This document shows, one piece after another, positions 1 through 20,600 of a stretch of 21,804 bases of DNA (positions within the stretch are counted from its first letter, which is position 1; the number at the start of each line of letters is the position of its first letter). Position numbers and translations under genes: made by a program. Origin of the DNA: a virus; IMG/VR virus record IMGVR_UViG_3300010339_000049, positions 1 to 21,804 of that record, one strand, 5' to 3'. The notes beneath the pieces are model-generated. The model saw nothing but the letters and a program-made list of their open reading frames with translations. It made no database searches and was not told the DNA's origin.

Positions 1-183
1 AAAATATTCAAGAAGCCCACCCCTCTTGGGTCCCCTGAACTGCCCAAGACTGTCGAAGAACCAATCGCACCACAGGAAGAAAAACCTCCGCAAGTTTGGT
101 TGAATTGTCATTGCTGCGGTAAAGCATCTTTTAATTGCATTCGAAAAGGTAAGTTTCTCGTTTGTGAGAATTGTCTTATATAA
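1..183 (+). CDS. C-terminal part of a small zinc-knuckle protein (5' end outside window)
   Basis: The frame is open from base 1 and ends with TAA at 181-183, giving the last 60 residues of a protein whose start lies upstream. The visible part begins with a Lys/Pro/Glu-rich linker and ends in a compact four-cysteine module, CHCC, about 15 residues, then CENC, close to the C-terminus. Two CxxC knuckles at this spacing fit a treble-clef or zinc-ribbon metal site. Such modules in small phage proteins often bind DNA or protein, but nothing here fixes the role. Its place directly before the head genes, where terminase genes usually sit, makes a packaging-associated protein possible. The linker codons at 16-35 carry one copy of a hairpin repeat seen elsewhere in the window. 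Confidence 0.6.
   Translation, partial: KIFKKPTPLGSPELPKTVEEPIAPQEEKPPQVWLNCHCCGKASFNCIRKGKFLVCENCLI
16..35 (+). repeat. Dispersed hairpin repeat, copy 1
   Basis: CCCACCCCTCTTGGGTCCCC. The arms CCCA and TGGG flank a 7-nt pyrimidine loop. It shares the core TCTTGGGTCC, preceded by CCCACCC, with copies at 7423 and 11626, in the same reading frame (codons for Pro-Leu-Gly-Ser in two of the three). Confidence 0.55.
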
Positions 184-554: not shown

Positions 555-2726
555 ATGCCAGCTCAATCTGGACAAATAGGACAGTCGCCTAATAGCTCTG
601 CCCTAACGATGAATCAGAATGACCGCATGGTTTGGGCCAAAGCGTCTCTGGCTCGTATGCGGAACTTCCGTCGTCCGTATGACCAACGTAGAAGTTATTT
701 CTACCGTCAATATATTGGTCAACGTGATCGTCGGATGTATCCAGACAATCTGACTCCGCGTGCGAATACTTTTGTTCCGTATTCTCAATCAAACGTAGAT
801 GCTATCGTCTCTCGCACGCGAGATGCTTTCTTTTCTATTGACCCGCCTATTGAAGTTCGAACTAAAGGTGGAACAGATTACAGTGCTATGCAAATGCAGA
901 ACGTCATGCTTACATGCATGAAGCGTGCTGCTTGGGTTCAAAAGATTGAAGAATTCTGTCTTAATGAAGCCATCTATGGACATGCCGGAATTAAAATAGA
1001 CTGGGACTGGGATACGGATACAGTGACAGGCCCAGAGCCCGTTTATCAAATGCAGCCCTTGACTGATAATATGGGCCAGCCGATGATGGACCTTCAGGGC
1101 CAACCAATCATGATCCCTGCTGTCGGGCCTGATGGGGGACCCATACAGGTGGGAGTCAACATGGTCACTATGACCGTGCCTCGCAACTGTCCTAAGTTAT
1201 ATCCTATTGATATTTATGATTTGCTAATTGACCCGGACGAGGAAATCGTCGCGCACATGATTGAGAAGTCATGGGGCCAGATGCAGCGTGAAGTTGCTGC
1301 GAATCCAAAACTTTATTTCCCAGAAGCAATTGCTGAACTTGCTTCACGTATTTCTCGTTATTCCGCTGAGGATCGTGATGGTATTATTATCCGCATCGCA
1401 GAGATGTGGGATAATACAAAGAAGGATGTAACGATCATTACTTCGACTGATGACTGGGACGCTCTTTCCTGGAAAGACCGGAGGTACCAGTATCGCAATG
1501 CAAGCTACAGTGCTTACAAAAGACAAGTCTACAATGGCCCTAGTGTTATTCTCTATACCGGGCCGAACCCATTTGCTCACCAGCGTATTCCGATTCTTCA
1601 CATGCCCTATACTATTGTTCCCGGAGACGTGTATGGGCTTGGCCTTATTGAACGCATATCTGACCTTAATGAAGCAGTAAACGTAATGACCAATATGATT
1701 ACTGACAATTGGAACATGGGTATCAATCGTCGGTATGCATATGACACACAAGCTGATATCGATCACGAACAGCTTGATCTTGGTAATACTCCCGGTGGTA
1801 AAGTGGGGGTCACAGGAGACCCTAACAAAGTACTTGCGCCTTTACCTTTCTTTACTCCTCAGGCAGGGGACTATACCATCCTTGACCTCTACAAGGGGAT
1901 GATTGAACTATCGTCCGGGATCAGCGACTTCTATGCCAAAGGTATTGGTTCTTCAGGTGGCAACCGTACATCTTCTGGCATCTCGCAGGTTATTAATGAA
2001 TCTGGTTATGTCTTCAAGCGTTTTATCTCGAATCTCGAACTTCGTATTCTGCAACCGATGATGGAAATGGTTGCATCCATGATTCAACAGTTTGGAACTG
2101 ATGAAATGGAGTATGACATAACCAATGCTCAACCGGGTATTCCGAAATATGGTCGAGTCAAACTCGGTACTCTTATCGGTAATTATTCGTTTGATTTTGT
2201 TGGCGCTAACTATGCTACTGGCAAGGTAGTCAAGCAGCGCAACTTAATGGCATTCTACAATATTGCTTTGCAGAGTCCTTATTGCAACCAAGGCGAGTTC
2301 CTTCGTGAAATCGGGCGTTGCATGGAGATTCCGTATGTGAATCGTTTGCTCCGTACTGAGCAGGAAGTTCAACAGTCTCAGCAAGCTGCAAACACCGCTC
2401 GTCAGCAAGAAGAACTCATTAAGGAATTGCTGAAGATCGAAGGTAAGGCTCTACCTGCTGCATTGGCTAAAGCTGAACCTAATCAAGTTACAGCAGATGC
2501 TCGTAAGACTCAGGTTGTTATTGAAGAGTATCTCGCACAAACAGCAGAACAACTATTAGGCCAAGTCCCCGGAGATGCAGCCATTCTTCCTGAGACTAAT
2601 AGGCACGAGGGTAATCAAGCTACGTCGCAATTTGAAGGTTCTATTCCGGGCGGGGATATGAGCAATCACATGGGCGGTTTCGCTCAGGCGATGGGTGCAA
2701 ATTCTCTAGGAACAGCAGGAACTTAA
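555..2726 (+). CDS. Portal protein
   Basis: 723 residues. The start is ATG 555 with AAGGGA at 545-550, overlapping the previous stop. Portals form the dodecameric ring at the DNA-packaging vertex and contact the terminase and the head-tail adaptor. Size fits the larger podovirus portals. The N-terminal 60 residues are basic and aromatic (Arg/Tyr-rich helix). These are followed by a segment with an I-D-P-P-I-E-V strand, a long helix with M-x-x-V-M-L-T, and a W-D-W-D acidic strand pair, as in the wing and clip regions of environmental podovirus portals. A middle block (about residues 395-480) has the D-L-x-E-A-x-N-x-x-x-N-x-x-x-D-N stem-like helix followed by a P-G-G-K strand. Residues about 596-645 form a Gln/Glu/Lys-rich coiled coil, expected for the crown or barrel end. 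Position before scaffold and capsid agrees. The assignment rests on architecture and gene order, not on a search. Confidence 0.85.
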   Translation: MPAQSGQIGQSPNSSALTMNQNDRMVWAKASLARMRNFRRPYDQRRSYFYRQYIGQRDRRMYPDNLTPRANTFVPYSQSNVDAIVSRTRDAFFSIDPPIEVRTKGGTDYSAMQMQNVMLTCMKRAAWVQKIEEFCLNEAIYGHAGIKIDWDWDTDTVTGPEPVYQMQPLTDNMGQPMMDLQGQPIMIPAVGPDGGPIQVGVNMVTMTVPRNCPKLYPIDIYDLLIDPDEEIVAHMIEKSWGQMQREVAANPKLYFPEAIAELASRISRYSAEDRDGIIIRIAEMWDNTKKDVTIITSTDDWDALSWKDRRYQYRNASYSAYKRQVYNGPSVILYTGPNPFAHQRIPILHMPYTIVPGDVYGLGLIERISDLNEAVNVMTNMITDNWNMGINRRYAYDTQADIDHEQLDLGNTPGGKVGVTGDPNKVLAPLPFFTPQAGDYTILDLYKGMIELSSGISDFYAKGIGSSGGNRTSSGISQVINESGYVFKRFISNLELRILQPMMEMVASMIQQFGTDEMEYDITNAQPGIPKYGRVKLGTLIGNYSFDFVGANYATGKVVKQRNLMAFYNIALQSPYCNQGEFLREIGRCMEIPYVNRLLRTEQEVQQSQQAANTARQQEELIKELLKIEGKALPAALAKAEPNQVTADARKTQVVIEEYLAQTAEQLLGQVPGDAAILPETNRHEGNQATSQFEGSIPGGDMSNHMGGFAQAMGANSLGTAGT

Positions 2727-4017: not shown

Positions 4018-4431
4018 ATGGGAGTGTTGAGGGATTTTTTTCGGGGACGTACCATTACAGTTGTAAAGGAAGTCCCTGTTGATGTTATTAAATATAAGAT
4101 AGTTGAACTCGAAAAGCCTCGACCTGTTGCCCAAGGTTGGGATAAGGAATCTCGTGAGACTGTGATGACGCTAGCCGCGCATCCTGGCTTCCTGATTCTT
4201 ACCGATAGGCTTAAGATTCAATCTGCTCTCCTCAAACAGAAACTATCGCAAGATCGCCACAACGGTCTTCGAGATGTAGAGTTTCTTCAGAGCGGAATTT
4301 TTTGGTGTAATTGGTTGACTCAGCAGTTGGCCGCCGCTACAACGCGTGCAGCCGCAACTGCTAAGGATGCCATGAAGGAAGATGAGGATGCCTTCAAAGA
4401 ATTGCAGTCTCAGCTCGTAAAGCTAGACTAG
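4018..4431 (+). CDS. Small helical protein of unknown function between portal and scaffold
   Basis: 137 residues from ATG 4018, with AAGGAG at 4007-4012, one of the best ribosome binding sites in the window. The N-terminus is basic with an R-D-F-F-R-G-R start. A beta-like V-V-K-E-V-P-V-D-V stretch follows, then W-D-K-E-S-R-E-T-V leading into H-P-G-F-L-I-L-T-D-R-L. From residue 60 onward the protein is predicted helical, with amphipathic Leu/Lys/Gln segments, an aromatic F-W-C-N-W motif, and an Ala-rich then acidic helix at the C-terminus. I have a sense of similar short proteins preceding scaffolds in environmental podoviruses, but no named family. A head-assembly accessory role is inference from position. 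Confidence 0.7.
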   Translation: MGVLRDFFRGRTITVVKEVPVDVIKYKIVELEKPRPVAQGWDKESRETVMTLAAHPGFLILTDRLKIQSALLKQKLSQDRHNGLRDVEFLQSGIFWCNWLTQQLAAATTRAAATAKDAMKEDEDAFKELQSQLVKLD

Positions 4432-4479
4432 TCCCGGCCACAAGCCGAATTTCAATGCGTGACAACACGCGGAGATGAT

Positions 4480-5439
4480 ATGCCTGAAGACGTTTCAGCC
4501 CAATTAGAAGCAGTAGCTCCCGGTGGTGTAGTTCAATTAGGCAATGCCCCTGCGAGCCTCGATGATGGAATGTTTGACTCGTTATTTCCTGCGGAGCCAA
4601 CCGTTCAGTCCGCCCCGGCACAACCGGTGCAAACCCAACAGCAGGTAGCAGCCACTCCCGCTCAAACCCCGACCCAAACACCGGTAACACAAACGCCGGT
4701 AGCAAGTGATTTCTTCTTGCAAGGTCAGGTTTCAAAGTATAAGACAGCGGATGCGGCTGTGGAAGGTATCAACGCAAAAGATGCCTTAATCGAGCAATTG
4801 CGTCAGCGATTTGCTTTGACTACAGGGGTTGATCCAATTACAAATCAACCCGTAGGACAAGTTCAACAACAGCAACAAGCAGTACAGCAGACAGATTATT
4901 CCCAAAACGCAGAGTTGTATGTTAAGGACCTAACCGAAGCAGCTAATAAGAATGACCCGAAAGCTTACCGGGATATTCAAGTTAAATTGCTGATGGATAC
5001 GTTCAAGCCATTGCAACCTGTGATTCAGAATGCCGCTCGTGAGCAAGCCAGCCAGCAATTCTTGGCTCAGGTTCCTGCTGCGAAGGAATTCCTTGGGTCT
5101 CCTGCTTACTCTAAGGCTCTTGAAGCTTCTCCTGAACTGGCCGAAGCGATCTCTATCTGCGAGAGGGAACCCTCTCAAGCAGCCCGTCTGCCGGGGCTAT
5201 ACAAGCTAGCCCATCTGACAGCACAGGGGATTGCAGCGCCCGACCTCCTGAGAGCACAGCAAACTGTTCAACAGACTGCGCCTCAGAACACACCAACGAC
5301 TCAGGTTGTAAGAACAACGATGGCACCAACGACTCAAAGTATTCCTCAGAAGGTTGCCTCTCCTACTCTTCGTACTCTCGAAGGTATTAGGGCAACGATT
5401 GCGGAAGCTGAAGCTCGTGGCGTCAGTATGAACTTCTAA
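4480..5439 (+). CDS. Probable head scaffolding protein
   Basis: 319 residues. ATG 4480 is preferred because GGAG lies six bases before it. A GTG at 4459 in frame would add seven residues but has no such site. Scaffolds guide capsid assembly and leave the procapsid. Evidence is the position immediately before the major capsid gene, strong hydrophilicity, lack of cysteine except one, and architecture. It has an acidic N-terminus, a long low-complexity Pro/Gln/Thr linker (about residues 40-75), then F-L-x-G-Q-V-S-K-Y-K-T-A-D-x-A-V-x-G-I leading to K-D-x-L-I-x-x-L-R-x-R, a segment common in phage scaffolds. A poly-Gln stretch, helical middle, another Gln/Thr/Pro linker and a C-terminal helix follow. 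Scaffold C-terminal helices usually contact the capsid protein. No protease domain is visible. Confidence 0.75.
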   Translation: MPEDVSAQLEAVAPGGVVQLGNAPASLDDGMFDSLFPAEPTVQSAPAQPVQTQQQVAATPAQTPTQTPVTQTPVASDFFLQGQVSKYKTADAAVEGINAKDALIEQLRQRFALTTGVDPITNQPVGQVQQQQQAVQQTDYSQNAELYVKDLTEAANKNDPKAYRDIQVKLLMDTFKPLQPVIQNAAREQASQQFLAQVPAAKEFLGSPAYSKALEASPELAEAISICEREPSQAARLPGLYKLAHLTAQGIAAPDLLRAQQTVQQTAPQNTPTTQVVRTTMAPTTQSIPQKVASPTLRTLEGIRATIAEAEARGVSMNF

Positions 5440-5458: not shown

Positions 5459-6478
5459 ATGTTTAAGAATTTTCTCACCTTCATCGGGATTGCCTTTGGG
5501 TTCGGCGACGATATCATTTCAGTTGTCACTGGTTCCACCGGCGTTCCGGGTCCTGCGGGTTCTCTCGCATCTGACCAGCAAACCTATTTCTCCGCCAAGC
5601 TGCTCGAAGTTGCAGTGCTTATCACTGTGCTCGACCAGTTCGGAGACAAAGACCCGATTCCGTCTAACTCGTCTAAAACCATTCAGTTCAACCGTTTGGA
5701 GAAGCTCGCTACCACGACTGCTCCGGTTCAGTTGACTGAAGGTGTGCAGCCGGACGCAGACGGTCTCCAAATGTCTCAGTTCACCGCAGTTGCCGAACAG
5801 TACGGGAAGTTGCTCCGTCTGTCGGACCTTGCGGAACTGACCAGCAAGCACGACGTGGTTGGTCGCGCCCTGTACGTTCTCGGCTTGCACGCTGCTGAAA
5901 CGTATGACATCCTTATTTTCAACGTTCTGGCAGGCGCGTCTAACGTGTACCGTCCGAACGGCAAGACTTCCAATGCAACGACCACGGCGTCCGATAAAGT
6001 CGGCTACGTGGATTTGACTGCAATCCATGCGTCCTTGATGGATGCTGGCGCACGTCCCTTCGACGATGGCGATTATGTTTTCGTCATTCCGCCCCAGGTT
6101 CATGCTTCTTTGCAGCAAGACCCTGACTTCAAAGCTTCCAACCAGTTCGGCAAGCCCGAGCGCATTTGGAAGGGCGAAGTTCAGGAACTAGCCGGATGGA
6201 GAATTGTCAAGAGCAACGCTCCTGGCTTTGCTCCGTTCACTCAGGCTACCTCCGGTGCAGCGAACAAGGTTTATACCTCGTTTGCAATCGCTCGCAATGC
6301 GTATCAGGTTTCGGAACTTCAGAACCTGCGCGTGTATGCGGCTGCTCCTGGTGGACAGACTGACACCTTGCAGCAATCGCGTAAGATTGGTTATAAGTTC
6401 GCTTTCAAGGCGATCATCACTAACCAAGCGTGGTTGTATCAGGTTGCGTCTGCTGGACAGGCATCGGTCAACAACTAA
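5459..6478 (+). CDS. Major capsid protein, N4-gp56 family (HK97 fold)
   Basis: 339 residues from ATG 5459, with AGGAT at 5449-5453. The order of segments fits the N4-gp56 family of HK97-fold capsid proteins. There is an N-terminal arm, Y-F-S-A-K-L-L-E-V-A, then a long helix ending D-Q-F-G-D-K-D-P-I-P, followed by K-T-I-Q-F-N-R-L-E-K-L and E-G-V-Q-P-D, and Y-G-K-L-L-R-L-S-D-L-A-E-L-T (spine helix region). A later block contains D-Y-V-F-V-I-P-P-Q-V with W-K-G-E-V-Q-E-L-A-G-W-R-I-V (A-domain). No delta-domain protease or N-terminal cleavage site is obvious. Codons are clearly biased to C-ending forms (12 of 15 Asn codons are AAC), unlike neighbouring genes, which fits heavy expression. Two hairpins follow the stop codon. 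Confidence 0.88.
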   Translation: MFKNFLTFIGIAFGFGDDIISVVTGSTGVPGPAGSLASDQQTYFSAKLLEVAVLITVLDQFGDKDPIPSNSSKTIQFNRLEKLATTTAPVQLTEGVQPDADGLQMSQFTAVAEQYGKLLRLSDLAELTSKHDVVGRALYVLGLHAAETYDILIFNVLAGASNVYRPNGKTSNATTTASDKVGYVDLTAIHASLMDAGARPFDDGDYVFVIPPQVHASLQQDPDFKASNQFGKPERIWKGEVQELAGWRIVKSNAPGFAPFTQATSGAANKVYTSFAIARNAYQVSELQNLRVYAAAPGGQTDTLQQSRKIGYKFAFKAIITNQAWLYQVASAGQASVNN

Positions 6479-6566: not shown

Positions 6567-7004
6567 ATGGCTGACAACAGCACACAGACTATCATTAGGC
6601 ATAATCTCTCTGCTACCGCGCAGGAGAAACTTAACAAGAAAAAGGCTGGCGAACAGTATCAGAAAGAACATGCAGAGTTCGTCGCCAATGAAGAAAACTG
6701 GGAATACGTTGATATCCCGGACACAGACCTGTTTGACCAGCCGTTCGGTTACATCTCAATTAATCTTGAGCAGTATGGACCGGGACGGCATTTCGTAGAC
6801 CCTGATGTTGCAGGGGAACTACGTCGGATTCTTAAAGTACGAACTCAGTCGGACCTTCGAATCTATCGCCCAACGGCAGATAAGAAGATGCTAGAAATCA
6901 TGGCCCGACAAGGCAAGCCTCTTACCTCAGCTTCTTCTGGAACTCAAATGGATGTACCCTTTGAACCCTTTACGCAGAAGGAATTGGAAACAGGCCACCG
7001 GTAA
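6567..7004 (+). CDS. Protein of unknown function following the capsid gene
   Basis: 145 residues from ATG 6567, preceded by a doubled AAGGATAAGGAT ribosome binding region. An in-frame ATG at 6501 is inside the hairpin and less likely. The N-terminus is a basic, Lys/Gln/Glu-rich helix. The centre has aromatic and acidic strands (W-E-Y-V-D-I-P, Y-I-S-I-N-L-E-Q-Y-G-P-G). The C-terminal third is a charged helix followed by a Ser/Thr-rich tail. It has no membrane segment and no cysteine. The stop overlaps the next start (TAATG at 7002-7006), so translation is coupled to the DUF5675-like gene. The position after the capsid gene would suit a head completion or virion protein, but no family is recognised. 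Confidence 0.7.
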   Translation: MADNSTQTIIRHNLSATAQEKLNKKKAGEQYQKEHAEFVANEENWEYVDIPDTDLFDQPFGYISINLEQYGPGRHFVDPDVAGELRRILKVRTQSDLRIYRPTADKKMLEIMARQGKPLTSASSGTQMDVPFEPFTQKELETGHR

Positions 7005-7447
7005 TGAACTTAGCCCTTCAGCGCATTAACCTGACAGCGAACTCCACTTGCGGGAATTTGTTTATCGATAATGCGCTGGAATGCTGGACTCTGGAAGAAC
7101 CTCACGCAAGCGGCTTATCCGGGTCCTGCATACAGGCTGGCACCTACAATATTACCTTAGGACCTTCACCGAAGTTTGAAGGCTCATCTGACCCCTGGGA
7201 AAGACAGATGGGAGCAAATGTACCACACCTTATGAACGTACCTAATCGTCAATTCATCCTGATGCATTGGGGCAATACAGCGAAGGACACAGAAGGTTGT
7301 ATCCTCGTGGGTCTCGGCCATTCAGTCGATTTCATATCACAATCCCGAGCAGCCTTTACCGACCTAATCGGTAAGATGACCATAGCAGCAAACAGTGGAG
7401 AGAGTCTAACTTTGGAGGTATTGGACCCACCCAATCTTGGGTCCTAG
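7004..7447 (+). CDS. DUF5675-like protein, candidate cell-wall-acting lysis enzyme
   Basis: 147 residues starting at the TAATG overlap at 7004. The sequence follows the DUF5675 pattern as I know it. An N-terminal strand carries C-G-N-L-F-I-D, then W-T-L-E-E-P, S-C-I-Q-A-G-T-Y, P-K-F-E-G, V-P-N-R-Q-F-I-L-M-H-W-G-N (residues 79-91) and D-T-E-G-C-I-L-V-G (95-103). The paired H88 and C99 in an H-x-G-N ... T-x-G-C-I arrangement recall the His/Cys active site of YkuD-type L,D-transpeptidases. An enzyme acting on peptidoglycan cross-links is therefore a reasonable guess, and the two membrane proteins downstream fit a lysis cluster. No other endolysin is visible in the window. Enzymatic activity is inference. 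The alternative is a structural or accessory phage protein. Confidence 0.65.
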   Translation: MNLALQRINLTANSTCGNLFIDNALECWTLEEPHASGLSGSCIQAGTYNITLGPSPKFEGSSDPWERQMGANVPHLMNVPNRQFILMHWGNTAKDTEGCILVGLGHSVDFISQSRAAFTDLIGKMTIAANSGESLTLEVLDPPNLGS

Positions 7448-7454
7448 CACCATG
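7414..7454 (+). promoter_or_regulatory. Split translation start: Shine-Dalgarno, hairpin, then ATG
   Basis: A strong GGAGGT lies at 7414-7419, but the ATG of the next gene is at 7452, 32 bases away. Between them sits a perfect hairpin (7423-7444). If folded, the remaining linker is 3 plus 7 bases, a normal spacing. Hairpin-bridged starts are known in phage T4 (genes 25 and 38). Here it is inferred from sequence. Confidence 0.5.
7423..7444 (+). repeat. Dispersed hairpin repeat, copy 2
   Basis: Arms GGACCCA (7423-7429) and TGGGTCC (7438-7444) are perfectly complementary around an 8-nt loop CCCAATCT. This is the longest stem of the copies found. It encodes the last residues (P-P-N-L-G-S) of the DUF5675-like protein. 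Confidence 0.65.
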
Positions 7455-8138
7455 AGTATAACAACTGATATATCGTGGGTACAAGCCCACTTACTGTCTT
7501 TGGCTTTGGTAGTCTTGCTATCGTTCGGTGGCGTTTATGGGGTGGAAAGTATAGTCGCCAAACATGACGATGCAACAGCTAAGAAATTTCAGATTATCGC
7601 TTCAGATCAGGCAGCACAGAATAAAGCTTTTCAAACGCAGATATCCCAACAGATATCCTATCTCCAAGAGCAGAATGTTGAACAGAATAAAGAGATTGCT
7701 GTTCTCACTTCAGCTCTCTCAGCTAGAGCTATCGTAGAGAAGAAAGTTCCAGTTACAACTCATTCGTTAGATGCTGAACAAGTCGCCGAAGGATTAGGTG
7801 GGACTGCGGTAGGAGATGTTGTTAGCCTACCACTTCCTAAAGCCCAAGATGCTCTTACAGCAGAACTTCTTGTACCTTTGCTTCAGGCGGATAAGAACAA
7901 TCTAACTGACACAGTTGCAGCCGAACGTAAAATTTCAGATAACAATTTAGCCGAGTATACTTCGGAAAAGGCTGCACACGACTCGGATAATAAGACCAAT
8001 GCAACTATCATTTTAGCAGACAAAAAAGAACTTGTTGCTGCTAAAGCTGATGCTCGTAAAGCAAAAATCAAGTGGTTCGTAATCGGATATGTTTCAGGAT
8101 TCATTAGTGGGATAGCGGCACACGCGGCGGGTATCTAA
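7452..8138 (+). CDS. Two-TM coiled-coil membrane protein, spanin-like or lysis accessory
   Basis: 228 residues from ATG 7452. A TTG at 7437 in frame lies inside the hairpin and is not favoured. A hydrophobic helix at residues about 12-33 is followed by a long periplasmic-type region. That region has two Gln/Lys/Glu/Ala-rich coiled-coil stretches (about 45-95 and 150-205) separated by a Gly/Pro-containing segment with V-V-S-L-P-L-P-K. A second hydrophobic, Gly-rich helix is at 207-226 at the very C-terminus. The N-terminal anchor plus coiled coil resembles inner-membrane spanins, but classical i-spanins have one helix. A C-terminal anchor would instead tether both ends, as in unimolecular spanins, although no lipobox is seen. 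Position after the candidate lysis enzyme supports a lysis role. This remains inference. Confidence 0.6.
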   Translation: MSITTDISWVQAHLLSLALVVLLSFGGVYGVESIVAKHDDATAKKFQIIASDQAAQNKAFQTQISQQISYLQEQNVEQNKEIAVLTSALSARAIVEKKVPVTTHSLDAEQVAEGLGGTAVGDVVSLPLPKAQDALTAELLVPLLQADKNNLTDTVAAERKISDNNLAEYTSEKAAHDSDNKTNATIILADKKELVAAKADARKAKIKWFVIGYVSGFISGIAAHAAGI

Positions 8139-8331: not shown

Positions 8332-9510
8332 ATGGCCTATAATATTACCCTTACAGTTCAAAACGTCATTGACGGTGTTAGCCAAGACGTACGTCAACAA
8401 TTGAGTAGTAAGTTGTCAGGTGCTCAACAGACTGCTCTGATTGACTGGACTAACCGCGTCACTAATGAAATGATGCGCTGGTCGAACTGGTCTTTCATGG
8501 AGAGCATCCCTTATTACTTTATGACTCTGAAGGGTCAGACAGATTATTGGATCGGCGCAAAAGGAACAGGGCCAGTAGATACAGTTGACACCGGATTGAA
8601 CCTCCCCAACGTAGATAAAGTGGAACGTGATTCGGTTCGAGATATGTCTAACATGCGTGCCTTGAAGTGGCTGAAAGAACAACCGATTGGACCTACTCTT
8701 AATTACACTTCAGGTTTGGCACGTAATGGCCAACCTGCTACATTCCGTCAAGACCCAGATACGCCGTTCACTCTACAGATTTATCCAGCACCAGACAATC
8801 AGAACACCACTCAACCCGTTCCTCAAGCACCCTTTCTAACCTATGCTCCTGGTGGTACACTTCCCGCTAGGATGTACTTCATTAAAGTTACCCTGGTGGA
8901 TTCCCTTGCGAATGAGAGTGCTGCATCTTCTTCTAATCAAGCTTTCTTTGTTCCTGCGAATAATTTAGCGACTATCAAGTCCCCTGTGTTACCTTTTCCG
9001 GGCACGTCCACAGGTGTGCTATATTCAAACTGGAACGTCTACGCGGTGTCTGAAACTCCCGCGCAGTTCAACACCAATCAATCAGACCCGAATACGGAAA
9101 CGTTGCAGAACGTTTCCCCTATTGCTATTGGTACCGACTGGACTGAACCAGGAACTCCCTTAACTACGAATGGACAAGGCTGGCCGTCGAATAATAATTT
9201 GACCCAATTGGGTGGGTACATTATCCAGTTCCGTTACTTCCAGCAACGCAATACCTTGGCTAATGTTACGGACACCATTCAAATTCCTTCCAAATACTTT
9301 GACATTATTGTGCATGGCGTAACCGCTTATGCATGGAGATTCTTAGGCCGTGAAGATAAAGGCGAGTTTGAACAGCGCCTGTTTCTTGATGGATATCGTC
9401 AGATGGTCGTTGACAAGAACCTGTTCCCCGAAGGTGTGGAGTTTATTCGCCCGGATGCTGGGACGTATGTCAATCAACAAATACTTGGCTACTTGCCACC
9501 GTTCTTCTAA
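8332..9510 (+). CDS. Head-tail adaptor protein with an inserted Ig-like domain
   Basis: 392 residues from ATG 8332. AAAAGG lies about ten bases upstream. The N-terminal 58 residues are helical (Q-N-V-I-D-G-V-S-Q-D-V-R-Q-Q-L, W-T-N-R-V-T-N-E-M-M-R-W-S-N-W). The C-terminal part (about 293-365) has F-R-Y-F-Q-Q-R, then D-T-I-Q-I-P-x-K-Y-x-D-I-I-V-H-G-V and a helical stretch. Together these resemble the helical adaptor ring under the portal in podoviruses (P22 gp4-like and T7 gp11-like). Between the strands I-Y-P-A-P-D-N (150-156) and Y-I-I-Q-F-R-Y (296-302) lies an insert of about 130 residues with a fibronectin/Ig-like pattern (A-R-M-Y-F-I-K-V-T-L-V-D, W-N-V-Y-A-V-S, T-E-T-L-Q-N, W-T-E-P). The insert would project from the tail as an exposed domain. 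Confidence 0.72.
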   Translation: MAYNITLTVQNVIDGVSQDVRQQLSSKLSGAQQTALIDWTNRVTNEMMRWSNWSFMESIPYYFMTLKGQTDYWIGAKGTGPVDTVDTGLNLPNVDKVERDSVRDMSNMRALKWLKEQPIGPTLNYTSGLARNGQPATFRQDPDTPFTLQIYPAPDNQNTTQPVPQAPFLTYAPGGTLPARMYFIKVTLVDSLANESAASSSNQAFFVPANNLATIKSPVLPFPGTSTGVLYSNWNVYAVSETPAQFNTNQSDPNTETLQNVSPIAIGTDWTEPGTPLTTNGQGWPSNNNLTQLGGYIIQFRYFQQRNTLANVTDTIQIPSKYFDIIVHGVTAYAWRFLGREDKGEFEQRLFLDGYRQMVVDKNLFPEGVEFIRPDAGTYVNQQILGYLPPFF

Positions 9511-9753: not shown

Positions 9754-12716
9754 TGCCAGTTCCGGTCCCACAAATCAAAGCTGGTCGTCTGGGATACTAC
9801 CAGAACATTACCAATAATAGCCGTACCATGATTGGTATGGCTGCCGATGGAACTGGTGTAAACTCTCTTACAAACAACGTGGGGTATTGGAATGCGGGTG
9901 GCACTTTTACTAACATCTTTACTCCTAGCGCCGGAGCTACTACTCCTTATATGTGTACTTCCCGTGATTATGCGTTCTTCACGGACGGGGAGCAAAGCGA
10001 TCTCTACAAGTGGGACTTAAACACTCAGCTTTGGAACTGGGGCATTGCCGCACCAACTTCTGCACCGAGTATAGCCGTTTCATCTACCGGAGGAAGTAAT
10101 CAAGGGGCCTGGTCTGCTAATACTGTTATGTCTACGATGGGTCTTCTCGTAGATACAAATAACAACGTTCAGTCGTTGGTCAGTGTCAATGTCAGTGGGA
10201 CAAATACGAATCTGACCGTTGGTTCAAGTGGTCCCGGTACACCGAACTGGAATCAAACAGGTGGCGGTACAACTTCTGATACAGGTATAACTTGGACTAA
10301 TCGTGGGCCTATTGGTGTGTGGCAAGAAAATCACTTTTATAACCAAGGCACTCTAAGTTTCGGTACCGTAACTAATCCTTCCTTCGTTTACGATACAGGT
10401 ACTAATTCTATTTATATGAATGACCAAGGTGGCGGTGGTATTTCCGGTACCATCCCTCCTGGCTTTAAACCCGTAGTCGGTGGAGACGTACAAGATGGAA
10501 ATTGTAAATGGCAGTGGGTTGCTTTCGTTAATCCTGCTCAAGCAACACCCTCTCAAGCGGCTATTACGGGATGGCAACCGAGTACATACTACACCCAATG
10601 GTTTGCGTCTTCAAACTTTTCCAAGGCCGCAGTTGTCGAACCTTGTGGTGTTCTCACAGCCTACAATGGCGTAACGAATACCTTTAATCAACCCGTCTAC
10701 ATGCAGACTTGTTCTGGCGGTACCACTCCAGCTACCGAGTCACAATTGTATTGGGCACCTCTCGCGGGACAATATACCGACGATGGCAACCTACGTTGGT
10801 TGAATCTCGGCTCTAAAACTTGGGCAGCAAATACTGCTTATACCGCTTGGGCTACCGGCGTTCAGAATTTCTCAGCCGTTGAAGATAGCCACGGTAATAT
10901 GCAAATATGTATTATCAGTGCTCCTTTTTCCGGCGCATCTATTACGTTTCCAACTTCATATGTAGACACCAATTATGGAAACGAAACAGTAGACTCAGGA
11001 GCGGTTGAAACCTGGGCCGCAGTAGGTCCCCCAGTTGCATGGTCTGCGTCTACAAAATGGTTTCTTCCAACCGGTGGTTTCGTCGCCCCTGCTTCCACAT
11101 CTGCATTTGGCGGCGTGACAATTATTGATTCCACAGATACCTATATTTTATCCGTAGTCATATCGGGTAAATCCGCCTCTTCTGGGACCGGTCCAACAGG
11201 CGCAGTTGGAACATATCCCACAGACAATACTGTCACATGGTATTCTGTTACGACCTTAGGCACAGGAGGAACAACGAATGTCGGTGCAGTTACCCTCGCC
11301 AGTGGTCGTTATTATTACGTCGTCTATCAAAATAGTATCTCAGGTGGTATGTCCGCTCCGTCACCCGTATCCCCGTTTACTGGGGTGATGAATAGTGGTG
11401 GGGTATACATCTATAACATACCCGTATCCCCTGATCCACAAGTCAATACGAAGATTATTCTAACTACCGCAGATGGTGGTAATCCGAACACGCTCTATTA
11501 CCTTGCCACGATTGCCAATAGCGTCACTTCCTACCCGGACAACACTCCCGAAACTACCGTCCTGCTAGCAAACGTTTATCAGGAAACGGATGCATATGGG
11601 AACGTAATCGGCGTTTACAATAATAACCCACCCCCTCTTGGGTCCTTCCCAACATCCCACAAAGGCCGTATTTGGCTTGCTTCTGGATCAACAGTCTATT
11701 TTTCTAAATCACTGGCAGATGTTGTGACTGTTAGTGGTATTGTTGCAGGTCGTTATGAAGAAGCCTTTAATCCTGCCAATGCACTTGACATTAGTCCCGG
11801 AGCCGAACGCATCACTGGTCTCTTATCTGATGGCTTTGCCCTTTACATCGGAACAGAACGCCATGTCCGTCGTATCTTTGGCGATAGCCCGACTAACTTC
11901 CAATTGCCGAACGTCATCTTCTCTGAAGCGGGAGTAATGAATCAAAACGTTTGGCAGATCGTCTTCATGCGCGAACAACCAGTTGGCTGCATGTGGTTGA
12001 CTCCCGATTTTCGTTGTATCCGTAGTGACTTCAATATCTATTTAAATGTCGGTGAACCTATTCAGAACACATTGAATAGCATTAACCCTGCTGCCACAGC
12101 CGCTTGCTGGGCAACCTATGTCGGATACAACACGTACAACTTCTATTGCTTAGCAATATGCACAGGTTCCAACACCACGCCGGATACGATGTGCGTGTAT
12201 GACCTACAGCGCCAGAAGTGGTACATATGGCAATTCGCGGATCACTTCTTGAGCGGTTTGTTTTATTGCTCTCTATCCGGCGTGCTCCGTTGGATTATGA
12301 TTGATTCCAATGGAGATGTTCGTTATGTAGACCCTACGGTGGTGGAAGATCGGTCAACCGATCCCGCTCCTGTAGGTATTACCTCTACCTGGACTACCAG
12401 TTGGTTGTCCTTAGGGGACCCGACTATTAAGAAGGTAGTGAACGAGGTTGAGGTTGGGACCACATTACCATCTACCCTTGTCTCGGTTTCTGGTGCTACC
12501 ACTGCCGCAGACTTCGCAAATCCCAATCTTATTATCTCAAATGCACCTTTAACACAGAACTTTTTGAATGAATATAAGGTATTCTTAGCGGGATTGAAGA
12601 CCACTTATAGGTTTTATCAATTCACATTCACGAGTTCTTCGGTTCCGTCTTCTACCTTACAAGATGTCTTGATGGATTACTTTGGCGTTGAAGTGATGCC
12701 GATTTCTAGAATCTAA
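9753..12716 (+). CDS. Nozzle-like tail protein (large beta-rich, podovirus tail hub)
   Basis: 987 residues from the TAATG overlap, with AGGAG at 9738-9742 supporting this start. The protein is almost entirely beta strands rich in Gly, Thr, Asn and aromatic residues. The N-terminal third has R-L-G-Y-Y-Q-N-I-T-N-N, T-S-R-D-Y-A-F-F-T-D-G and L-Y-K-W, typical repeats of propeller blades. Around residues 505-620 lies a fibronectin-type segment. From about 625, P-P-P, then H-K-G-R-I-W-L-A-S-G-S-x-V-Y-F-S begins a block continuing with E-R-I-T-G-L, L-Y-I-G-T-E-R-H-V, V-Y-D-L-Q-R-Q-K-W-Y and R-Y-V-D-P. That fits the nozzle-type tail protein of T7/P22-like podoviruses, which closes the tail tube beneath the adaptor. 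The residues around 625 carry hairpin repeat copy 3. The function is inferred from pattern and position. Confidence 0.72.
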   Translation: MPVPVPQIKAGRLGYYQNITNNSRTMIGMAADGTGVNSLTNNVGYWNAGGTFTNIFTPSAGATTPYMCTSRDYAFFTDGEQSDLYKWDLNTQLWNWGIAAPTSAPSIAVSSTGGSNQGAWSANTVMSTMGLLVDTNNNVQSLVSVNVSGTNTNLTVGSSGPGTPNWNQTGGGTTSDTGITWTNRGPIGVWQENHFYNQGTLSFGTVTNPSFVYDTGTNSIYMNDQGGGGISGTIPPGFKPVVGGDVQDGNCKWQWVAFVNPAQATPSQAAITGWQPSTYYTQWFASSNFSKAAVVEPCGVLTAYNGVTNTFNQPVYMQTCSGGTTPATESQLYWAPLAGQYTDDGNLRWLNLGSKTWAANTAYTAWATGVQNFSAVEDSHGNMQICIISAPFSGASITFPTSYVDTNYGNETVDSGAVETWAAVGPPVAWSASTKWFLPTGGFVAPASTSAFGGVTIIDSTDTYILSVVISGKSASSGTGPTGAVGTYPTDNTVTWYSVTTLGTGGTTNVGAVTLASGRYYYVVYQNSISGGMSAPSPVSPFTGVMNSGGVYIYNIPVSPDPQVNTKIILTTADGGNPNTLYYLATIANSVTSYPDNTPETTVLLANVYQETDAYGNVIGVYNNNPPPLGSFPTSHKGRIWLASGSTVYFSKSLADVVTVSGIVAGRYEEAFNPANALDISPGAERITGLLSDGFALYIGTERHVRRIFGDSPTNFQLPNVIFSEAGVMNQNVWQIVFMREQPVGCMWLTPDFRCIRSDFNIYLNVGEPIQNTLNSINPAATAACWATYVGYNTYNFYCLAICTGSNTTPDTMCVYDLQRQKWYIWQFADHFLSGLFYCSLSGVLRWIMIDSNGDVRYVDPTVVEDRSTDPAPVGITSTWTTSWLSLGDPTIKKVVNEVEVGTTLPSTLVSVSGATTAADFANPNLIISNAPLTQNFLNEYKVFLAGLKTTYRFYQFTFTSSSVPSSTLQDVLMDYFGVEVMPISRI
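11626..11645 (+). repeat. Dispersed hairpin repeat, copy 3
   Basis: Arms ACCCA (11626-11630) and TGGGT (11639-11643) flank an 8-nt loop of pyrimidines, followed by CC. The geometry is the same as copy 2, and the core TCTTGGGTCC is identical to copies 1 and 2. It encodes P-P-P-L-G-S inside the nozzle-like protein. Confidence 0.6.
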
Positions 12717-17613: not shown

Positions 17614-20600
17614 ATGCCTCCTCAACAGTATGATACAACGCAACTGGATCATTTAGATCATCCAGTTTTAGGACCCCTCGCGTTCCCTTCGGCGATGCCT
17701 GCTGAAGAACGGAATGGCATCATAGATAATATGATGGCTACGAGGTCTAAAGCATCTGGTGTTTCTACTGTCGGTGGTTTCGCTATGCCGACAGAGTATG
17801 CCAATGCCATTGCTCCTGCTATAGGAGTAATGAAGAATATTCAACAGGTATCTCAAGTAGCTTCTCAACCTAAAGAAGCCCCGCCTTTAATTCCATCTAA
17901 CGCCAGCATTCAAGCCCGGACTCCAACTATTGGGGAACGCCTTGGTAGTGCAATTGATCCTCTCATTCAGCACTTTAAAATGGGTGGTGCGGCTCAGGAC
18001 CCACGTTTACTTGCTCCAGAAGATGTAATGACTCCTCTGGAGAAAAAGAATCAACCCTTAGCCACAACTATTGGAGAAACCGTAGGTTCTCTTACCACTG
18101 CCCCTGGCATACTTACCATGGCCGCAACTTCCGGTATGGGTTCGCTAGCTCGTGTAATAGGGGTAGGTCCGGCGACAATGCTTAACCGTTTCGTAAGTGG
18201 AGCATTCTCCCTTTCGATGGTTAAGAATGCTTATGATAAATATCCCGCCTTCAAAGCAGCAGTTGACAATGGCGATATTAATGAAGCCAAGCATCAATTT
18301 TACGGTGGTGTTGTAGACCTTGGACTTGCTGCTTGGACCGGTCAACATTCTCTAATTGGCGATCCGGTTCCCGCTCAACCTTCTCCTAATCGTTCCCCTG
18401 TAGACATGGGCAGAGTAACAGTGCTGCCTCCCGATCCCGCAGGTCCGGGTATGGAAGCTGCTCGCGTAGGTGCGAACACTCCCAAACTCCCACCCTCTGT
18501 GGGTCCCCAAGAACTTCCTACTCCTAACTCATCGACACTGATGACTGGGAGTACTTCTGGTTTAAGGAAGCTTGAACCGCGTCAATATGATATAGCGGAA
18601 AAGTTTGGCTTAATCCCTCGTGCAGCATCTGCTGGTATGTCTGCGTATCATGAATTCCAAGACCCAAATACGGGTGGAAGTTTCTATGTAGAGAAGACAG
18701 CCACCGATGAAGCTATCTCTCGGAAACTAGCCGATTACCGTGCTTCAATCAATCCTGCGGACCGCTCTCCTGAGTTATTGAAGAAGGGTGAGGATGCTCG
18801 TAAGTCGATGGATGCGGCTAGGGTTATCGTTGACAATACTAAAGAACCCGATATGGCTGGGACTCCGAAACCCAGCGATGCCGAACCAGTTCCTGAACCT
18901 ATTCAGAAGTTCGTAGAGAAAGCACCTACGATGGTGCAGTCTATGGTTTCCGGTCAGATGGAACCCATAATGACGGAGATTCGTCTCCTTGAGCAGAGGC
19001 TTGCTCAAATGGATAGGGCGAGTGCAGCCAAGCCTGTTGCCCTTGGGCTGAGTGCTGCCGCCCCTCAAACTGTTGCTCCACCTGTTCGTGGGTCCCTTAC
19101 TGATTGGGCATTGCCACAGCATTTGGAAACCAATATCAATTTGTTAGTTGGTATGCGTACGAGCCTTGACTCAACCATCTCTGAGGCACAGAATACTGCT
19201 ATCTCAAATCGTATTGAAGCGGTCAAGGCCGATGCTCGTAACCAATTGCGCCAACATTTAATGGCTGCCAGTGATCGTCAATTGGAAATGCTTCAAGCCG
19301 ATCAGAAGGCTAAGGGCGCAGATTTAGACGAGCGTGCAGGGGCTGCGGCTTCGGCGATTGAAAATAATCGTAAGGTTGAAGTTGCTAATGCTGAACTGAA
19401 AGCTGCTCAAGCTACCGGTGGGCCGAATACAGGTGGTATTGATCCTGATACCGGCCAACCGATCAGTGAACGACCTGAATCAGTTATCAATACAGAATCA
19501 CGTTCCCTTATCAATGATATTCGGGGACGGGAAGTCATTGCTAAACCTGATATGCTTATTCCTCATCCCAAACCAAAGGGTATGACGGATGAAGCCTATG
19601 CTGAACATATTGCTAACCTTAATGAAAAGCGTATGGCATTGCGTAAGCATATTAAAGATCAATATGAAATCGTCAAGGACACAGGTGAAGGCTCTGAAGA
19701 ACTCATGGAGAAAATGCATGAGTTAGATCAGCTTTCTGGTCTGATTGGTAAGTATCCGTCAGGTCTAAAACGTCCAGGTCAGCTAACAACTCATCTTGGT
19801 GGACGGGCAAGGATTGTTGATCCTTCTGCTTCTGGTGCTGGACTTACGCTTATTGAAGCCCGTCGTATTATGGGTAAGCAGGTCAACAAGATTCCCGGTG
19901 CAACTGAGTTCGCTATTCAAGCTAAGAAACTAAAAGAAGAAGCACGTATCCGTAAGATGATTGCGGATGTTATTGACAAAGAAAAGGTTCGTCGTGCAGA
20001 TCAAAAGAAAGGTATCGATCCGGCGGAACAAGTTGCTGTAGCTGCTGAAACTGGAGTTAAGCCAAAGAACGATCCCAATCAACGCGGGGCACTTGGTGAA
20101 GTTGCTATAAAACAAAGTCCACGGCCTACCCTTTCTATCCCTAGTGATGCTGGAATGTTAGACCGAGCGAAGCAACTAGGATTAGATTCTTACTCAATAG
20201 ACGAAGATAACCCTCGTTCAGGCGGGCGTGGTTGGCTCTCCTCCGATGGTAAAACATGGATAACCGCTGGCGCTGATACCCACGATACCGTGGCATGGAA
20301 ATTACTGCGTCAGGATATGCCTGAAGGATTTAAGCACAGTCAGAATTACTTAGAGGATTCATTAGGTAATTCAGTACATGGCGCAGAAGCCATGAAAGAT
20401 GGCGGTTGGATTCGTAAAACAAACGATCACGACTACGAAATCTCTCGCTTTACTCCCGACCTTATTCATACCCTAGCCAATGATGGTAGATATGGTCGGT
20501 CTATGACTATTGACTATCGAGATGCCCAAGGCCAAATGAAGTATATTGACATTGGCAAATGGGAAGACGTAGATGATTTTGCTAAACAAGTTCGCGCAGG

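Follow-up and report, generated by a model that had tools for sequence, protein, structure and literature searches.

How does a ribosome find a start codon whose only strong Shine-Dalgarno (SD) sequence lies far outside the normal spacing? The question is raised by one gene junction in a 21,804-nucleotide stretch of viral DNA (positions 1 to 21,804 of IMG/VR record IMGVR_UViG_3300010339_000049), which as a whole is referred to here as the window. A first-pass annotation, made from the letters of the window, had proposed that a hairpin copied from a dispersed repeat bridges the gap between this SD and the start of a lysis-like membrane protein.

A distant Shine-Dalgarno sequence and a hairpin before ATG 7452

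The junction comprises the following features.

7004..7447, + strand: DUF5675 protein, the upstream gene (PF18925, E 3e-29; phrog_1501)
7414..7419, + strand: Shine-Dalgarno GGAGGT within the 3' end of the DUF5675 gene, on codons Leu-Glu-Val; -10.7 kcal/mol to the anti-SD
7423..7444, + strand: hairpin with a 7-bp stem (7423-7429/7438-7444) and loop 7430-7437; overlaps a site of the motif array described below; homologous hairpins in the related loci L010 and L026
7445..7447, + strand: TAG that ends the DUF5675 gene, 4 nt 5' of ATG 7452
7452..8138, + strand: 228-aa membrane protein, its membrane segment N-terminal and its match to Rz-like spanins weak; ATG backed by homologues

On re-reading the sequence, the coordinates given for the GGAGGT, the stem and ATG 7452 were all correct. 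The SD and the ATG are separated by 32 bases, and no SD is present at normal spacing before 7452, as had been claimed. The gap is occupied by a perfect 7-bp stem (GGACCCA paired with TGGGTCC) with an 8-nt loop; when the hairpin is folded out the SD-ATG linker, recomputed as 3 + 7 nt, is the 10 bases originally described. The hairpin also encodes the last codons of the DUF5675 protein, whose open reading frame (ORF) ends at TAG 7445-7447, again in agreement with the first-pass annotation. ORFs were called using a simple longest-ORF rule, and homologues whose alignments begin at residue 1 support the start at 7452. The description of the product as lysis-like is backed by its single N-terminal membrane segment and a weak profile match to phrog_739 (Rz-like spanin, E 0.018); in a profile search the 228-aa protein had no Pfam match. 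Within the window, no Rfam family matched at the gathering score.

The hairpin alone has a predicted folding energy of -11.3 kcal/mol, a stability reached by just 3 of the 21,782 22-mers of the + strand, the one at 7423 among them. When it was folded within about 100-200 nt of sequence, in three different contexts, the predicted probability of its pairs was 0.95-1.0. The stability of the whole 71-nt region is ordinary for its composition (z -0.87). Thus, the folding of 7400-7470 that had been suggested as a check upheld a strong hairpin, set in a region that is not unusually stable overall. The distant GGAGGT is the strongest SD near any start in the window, the next having an energy of -10.0 kcal/mol. 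Based on the predicted energies, freeing 7412-7422 and 7445-7464 with the hairpin kept requires 8.0 kcal/mol, and melting all of 7412-7464 requires 21.4 kcal/mol.

Outside the stem, GGU at 7417-7419 is predicted to pair with ACC at 7449-7451 (probability about 0.69), so that the SD could be partly hidden. This pairing would be the basis for an inhibitory structure that enforces coupling, in which the hairpin and the outer GGU/ACC helix hide both SD and start, and translation needs DUF5675 ribosomes to melt them. We consider this very unlikely, given that the outer helix is only 3 bp long, that pairing with the anti-SD (-10.7 kcal/mol) should compete with it, and that the ACC before the start is missing in L026 and L010.

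The junction in related phages

Relatives were retrieved using a capsid query on IMG/VR, which gave 57 related-phage loci, and further loci came from DUF5675 queries. All of the related records come from metagenomes and lack end repeats. The clade consists of uncultured phages, the longest records of which are 58-64 kb.

A far GGAGGT with an intervening inverted repeat occurs in three lineages. The first comprises the window and L012, with an SD-start distance of 32 nt and a folded linker of 10 nt. The second is L010, whose DUF5675 protein is 78% identical; here the distance is 36 nt, and the folded linker is about 7 nt with a 3-bp outer helix and otherwise about 16 nt. Its stem carries one C to T change, which gives a G-U pair, and one terminal mismatch. 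The third lineage, L019/L026, has a distance of 29 nt and the hairpin GGACC..GGTCC; in L026 the stem is altered to 5 bp, the folded linker is 9 nt and the DUF5675 stop lies inside the hairpin loop. The membrane proteins of the window and L026 are only 41% identical. In the hairpin-free lineages, GGAGG is found 7 nt (L028, L031) or 5 nt (L033/35/37) from the start; L028 and L031 have a + strand array site 367 nt inside the membrane-protein gene, and their SD is normal. L046 has an array site at the junction, yet a proximal GGAG too. In L062, a fourth case of the hairpin, the repeat has only a weak GGTGG on its 5' side and is followed by the start of a different downstream gene (1799-2224); this encodes a 141-aa protein (MAFSLTNIIGGSIGD...) with a hydrophobic stretch and replaces the membrane-protein gene after DUF5675. 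In L036, an extra small ORF (4318-4575; MSRITDRTEAG...) is inserted between the DUF5675 and membrane-protein genes and is served, at a spacing of 6 nt, by the same GGAGGT.

A homology-free scan for an SD, a hairpin of at least 5 bp and an ORF start returned five matches in 882 kb of related sequence, partly overlapping loci included. Two of the five are this junction in the window and its L026 orthologue. The three lineages in which SD, hairpin and start occur together are the only ones known and may derive from a single event by descent, and the comparison of the stem, which spans four junctions, has too little power for covariation. The cross-phage comparison that had been proposed thus recovered the hairpin at the junction in L010 and L019/L026, from few independent lineages and with a low ensemble probability in L010; the modelled probability of the L010 and L062 hairpins is 0.01-0.64, varying with context. 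Based on the energetics and the modelled stem probabilities, the physical case for bridging appears good in the window, fair in L026 and weaker elsewhere.

Expression of the membrane protein could also be explained by termination-reinitiation, with DUF5675 ribosomes stopping at TAG 7445 and restarting at ATG 7452, and with the GGAGGT and the hairpin uninvolved in initiation. Stop and start are separated by 4 nt, the gene pair of relatives overlaps or lies almost end to end (ATGA-type in L031, GTGA in L028), and a near SD is also absent at several other tightly packed starts in the window (6501, 9517, 12716, 15103 and 17614). As the whole explanation reinitiation nevertheless seems doubtful to us. 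In adjacent gene pairs that lack the site, the start is still preceded by GGAGG at 5-7 nt. The codons that carry it differ (E138-V139 in the window, V139-E140-D141 in L028), a pattern suggestive of selection for the SD; moreover, the stop of L026 lies 13 nt before the ATG. The GGAGGT is conserved in L010, L019/L026 and L033, and its position may partly reflect the protein, since the Leu-Glu-Val that it encodes is common to several relatives. We conclude that comparison supports bridging as a candidate mechanism: across lineages a far SD goes with a hairpin and a near SD with its absence, whereas reinitiation would fit the expression of the gene equally well and the SD can be partly hidden.

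The hairpin overlaps one site of a bipartite motif array

The repeat that the hairpin was said to copy is a bipartite DNA motif, CCACC-N4-8-GGGTC, in which the gap between the half-sites is variable (4-8 nt). It occurs about once per 3 kb across 13 related phage records, on both strands and in both genic and intergenic sequence. The sites in the window are listed here.

17..32, + strand: array site, score 21.4
1138..1152, - strand: array site, score 23.9
5535..5552, + strand: weak array site, score 16.8; sole exception to alternation in the window
7427..7443, + strand: array site CCACC-CAATCTT-GGGTC, the putative bridge (matrix scan)
9201..9215, - strand: array site (matrix scan)
11628..11644, + strand: array site (matrix scan)
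12330..12345, - strand: weak array site, score 16.5
18490..18505, + strand: array site (matrix scan)
18661..18677, - strand: array site (matrix scan)
19078..19094, + strand: array site (matrix scan)

With a two-part scoring matrix trained on exact sites, 182 sites were identified, compared with 5 in randomised sequence. The pattern CCCACCC-N2-7-GGGTC has 35 exact matches in 12 of 36 related records and its reversed form has none; copies exceed those in shuffled sequence by large factors in 10 of the 13 records. In an unbiased scan of all gapped 5-mer pairs, the highest or nearly highest rank in each record of 20 kb or more went to CCACC..GGGTC or to one of its shifted versions (CACCC or CACCT combined with GGGTC, GGTCC or CGGGT). 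Palindromic 5-mer enrichment, unlike the gapped-pair scan, did not bring out the motif. In G008, the record of L046, a direct pair ACTCC..ACTCC (26 vs 1.1 expected) outranks the array motif in the pair scan. The motif was also noted in L286-L316. In 27 records (about 1.3 Mb) of phages whose only shared gene is DUF5675, 5 sites were counted, compared with 16 matches to the reversed control. In genome_contigs, no capsid relative was found that would point to a host or prophage source, and a source of that kind was rejected, the pattern matches there being scattered over unrelated taxa in a chance-like manner. No gene was found whose presence tracks the C-type motif.

Relative to genes, the sites are evenly oriented (28 sense, 29 antisense). 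Records without the hairpin form carry the motif as well; their sixth base is mostly T (G001, G002 and G009) or A (G007), and for that reason no C/G hairpin forms. Together, the 28:29 orientation and the T or A at the sixth base in several phages rule out a family of sense-strand RNA hairpins. Intrinsic terminators are likewise ruled out, as no T-run follows the stem in the contexts inspected. The view that the hairpin copies a dispersed repeat was right in that the repeat is far above chance, and needs recasting in that the repeat is a DNA-level alternating array. Because hairpin formation within this array is lineage-dependent, translational control cannot be the general role of the repeat.

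Sense-oriented sites that end 1-20 nt before ORF starts number 9 (2.3 expected), mostly without a clear upstream SD. Sites near ORF starts are G008:5008, G008:51489, G002:35046, G009:12575 and G007:3666 (records of L046, L022, L055 and L043). Close to the junction, L033/L036 have an array site at +62 on the - strand, and other lineages have array sites a few hundred bases from the position occupied in the window; the local array persists.

Neighbouring sites alternate in orientation

The order of the sites in the window is + - (+ weak) + - + - + - +. Among the related records, neighbouring sites are inverted in 131 of 169 pairs. The binomial probability of this is 1.8e-13, and when orientations were shuffled within records, alternating pairs averaged 89.8 and reached 117 at most in 20,000 trials; probabilities quoted in this way are too small because they assume independence, whereas the records share ancestry and the pattern is partly inherited. 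When only exact sites are considered, all 38 of the 38 neighbours within 1 kb are inverted. Neighbours in the same orientation are about twice as distant (medians 3.6 and 4.5 kb vs 1.2 and 2.2 kb), a spacing that a missed or lost site would explain. About a quarter of comparisons (186 of 696) showed a genic site to have a counterpart where another record is homologous, and 180 of these 186 counterparts are in the same orientation. In fragments outside the matrix training, counted from exact matches only and with near-duplicates dropped, 17 pairs alternate and 10 do not (5 and 2 within 1 kb); this is the same direction, weaker and not significant on its own.

From the alternation alone, we infer that a protein may pair neighbouring sites in an orientation-sensitive manner, as in looping, recombination or DNA organisation. 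A search of the literature on alternating dispersed motifs in phages found nothing relevant. A further-reaching reading, to which we assign a probability of roughly 0.5, is that a clade with about 20 CCACC-N4-8-GGGTC sites per genome, alternating regardless of gene direction, has an undescribed organising or site-pairing system that acts on inverted neighbours, and that one site of this array was exapted as a split ribosome binding site (RBS), its hairpin bridging the distant SD to ATG 7452.

An array site as a candidate split ribosome binding site

According to our main reading, which we hold at about even odds, the inverted repeat at 7423-7444 is first of all an array site; in the lineage of the window, it separates the SD of the membrane-protein gene from the ATG. 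With C as the sixth motif base and GGA preceding the site, the mRNA is predicted to form the 7-bp hairpin. Comparison and energetics suggest that folding out would reduce the gap between SD and ATG from 32 nt to 10 nt and that a 30S subunit could still use the start; the gene would thus keep a usable SD because the hairpin folds out. Ribosomes that finish at TAG 7445-7447 and start again 4 nt further on probably supply the gene as well. Since the hairpin would melt whenever a ribosome translates through it, the two routes of initiation would alternate. Selection would retain the array site for a reason at the DNA level, with the split RBS as an accommodation.

The site might instead belong to the array and have no effect on translation, the GGAGGT arising by chance from the codons for Leu-Glu-Val. 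Array sites face either way, within and between genes, and those lying just upstream of other starts have no clear SD before them, an observation that counts against bridging. We nevertheless regard a pure array site as unlikely, in that the junction site goes with a distant SD in the lineages examined, with the exception of L046 and its proximal SD.

If the main reading is true, the bridge is one of few natural split RBSs with comparative support across phages. It would also suggest how a split RBS originates: a DNA site that is needed for another purpose comes to lie between SD and start, where its folding out makes it tolerable. The alternating array raises a new question, namely which phage protein or process needs scattered alternating sites.

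The closest comparison for the bridge is with phage T4 genes 38 and 25, in which a stem-loop shortens the SD-start distance from 22 to 5 and from 27 to 11 nt, respectively (PMC3014915). The window resembles them in its distant SD and intervening stem-loop, with a change from 32 to 10 nt. The T4 gene 25 structure is present in close T-even relatives and absent in distant ones (PMC3014915), and the hairpin described here may have a similar distribution. Unlike in T4, the hairpin is a copy of an array motif, it overlaps the end of the upstream coding sequence, a reinitiation route coexists with it, and bridging is predicted only.

For the array, a comparison can be made with the stoperators of cluster A mycobacteriophages, which lie predominantly in one orientation relative to transcription (PMC6550527). 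The array is like them in that a short asymmetric site recurs many times along the genome and its consensus changes between lineages (PMC6550527). Unlike stoperators, the array sites ignore the gene strand (28:29), alternate, and have a half-site gap of 4-8 nt. With no predominant orientation relative to transcription, the array sites do not fit stoperators.

The sites recognised by Type III restriction enzymes are short and contiguous, and phage T7 escapes EcoP15I by having all of its sites point the same way. The array is comparable to the head-to-head sites of translocating Type III enzymes in that the relative orientation of two sites matters (PMC3874151). It differs from them in favouring inverted neighbours and in a site that is bipartite with a variable gap.
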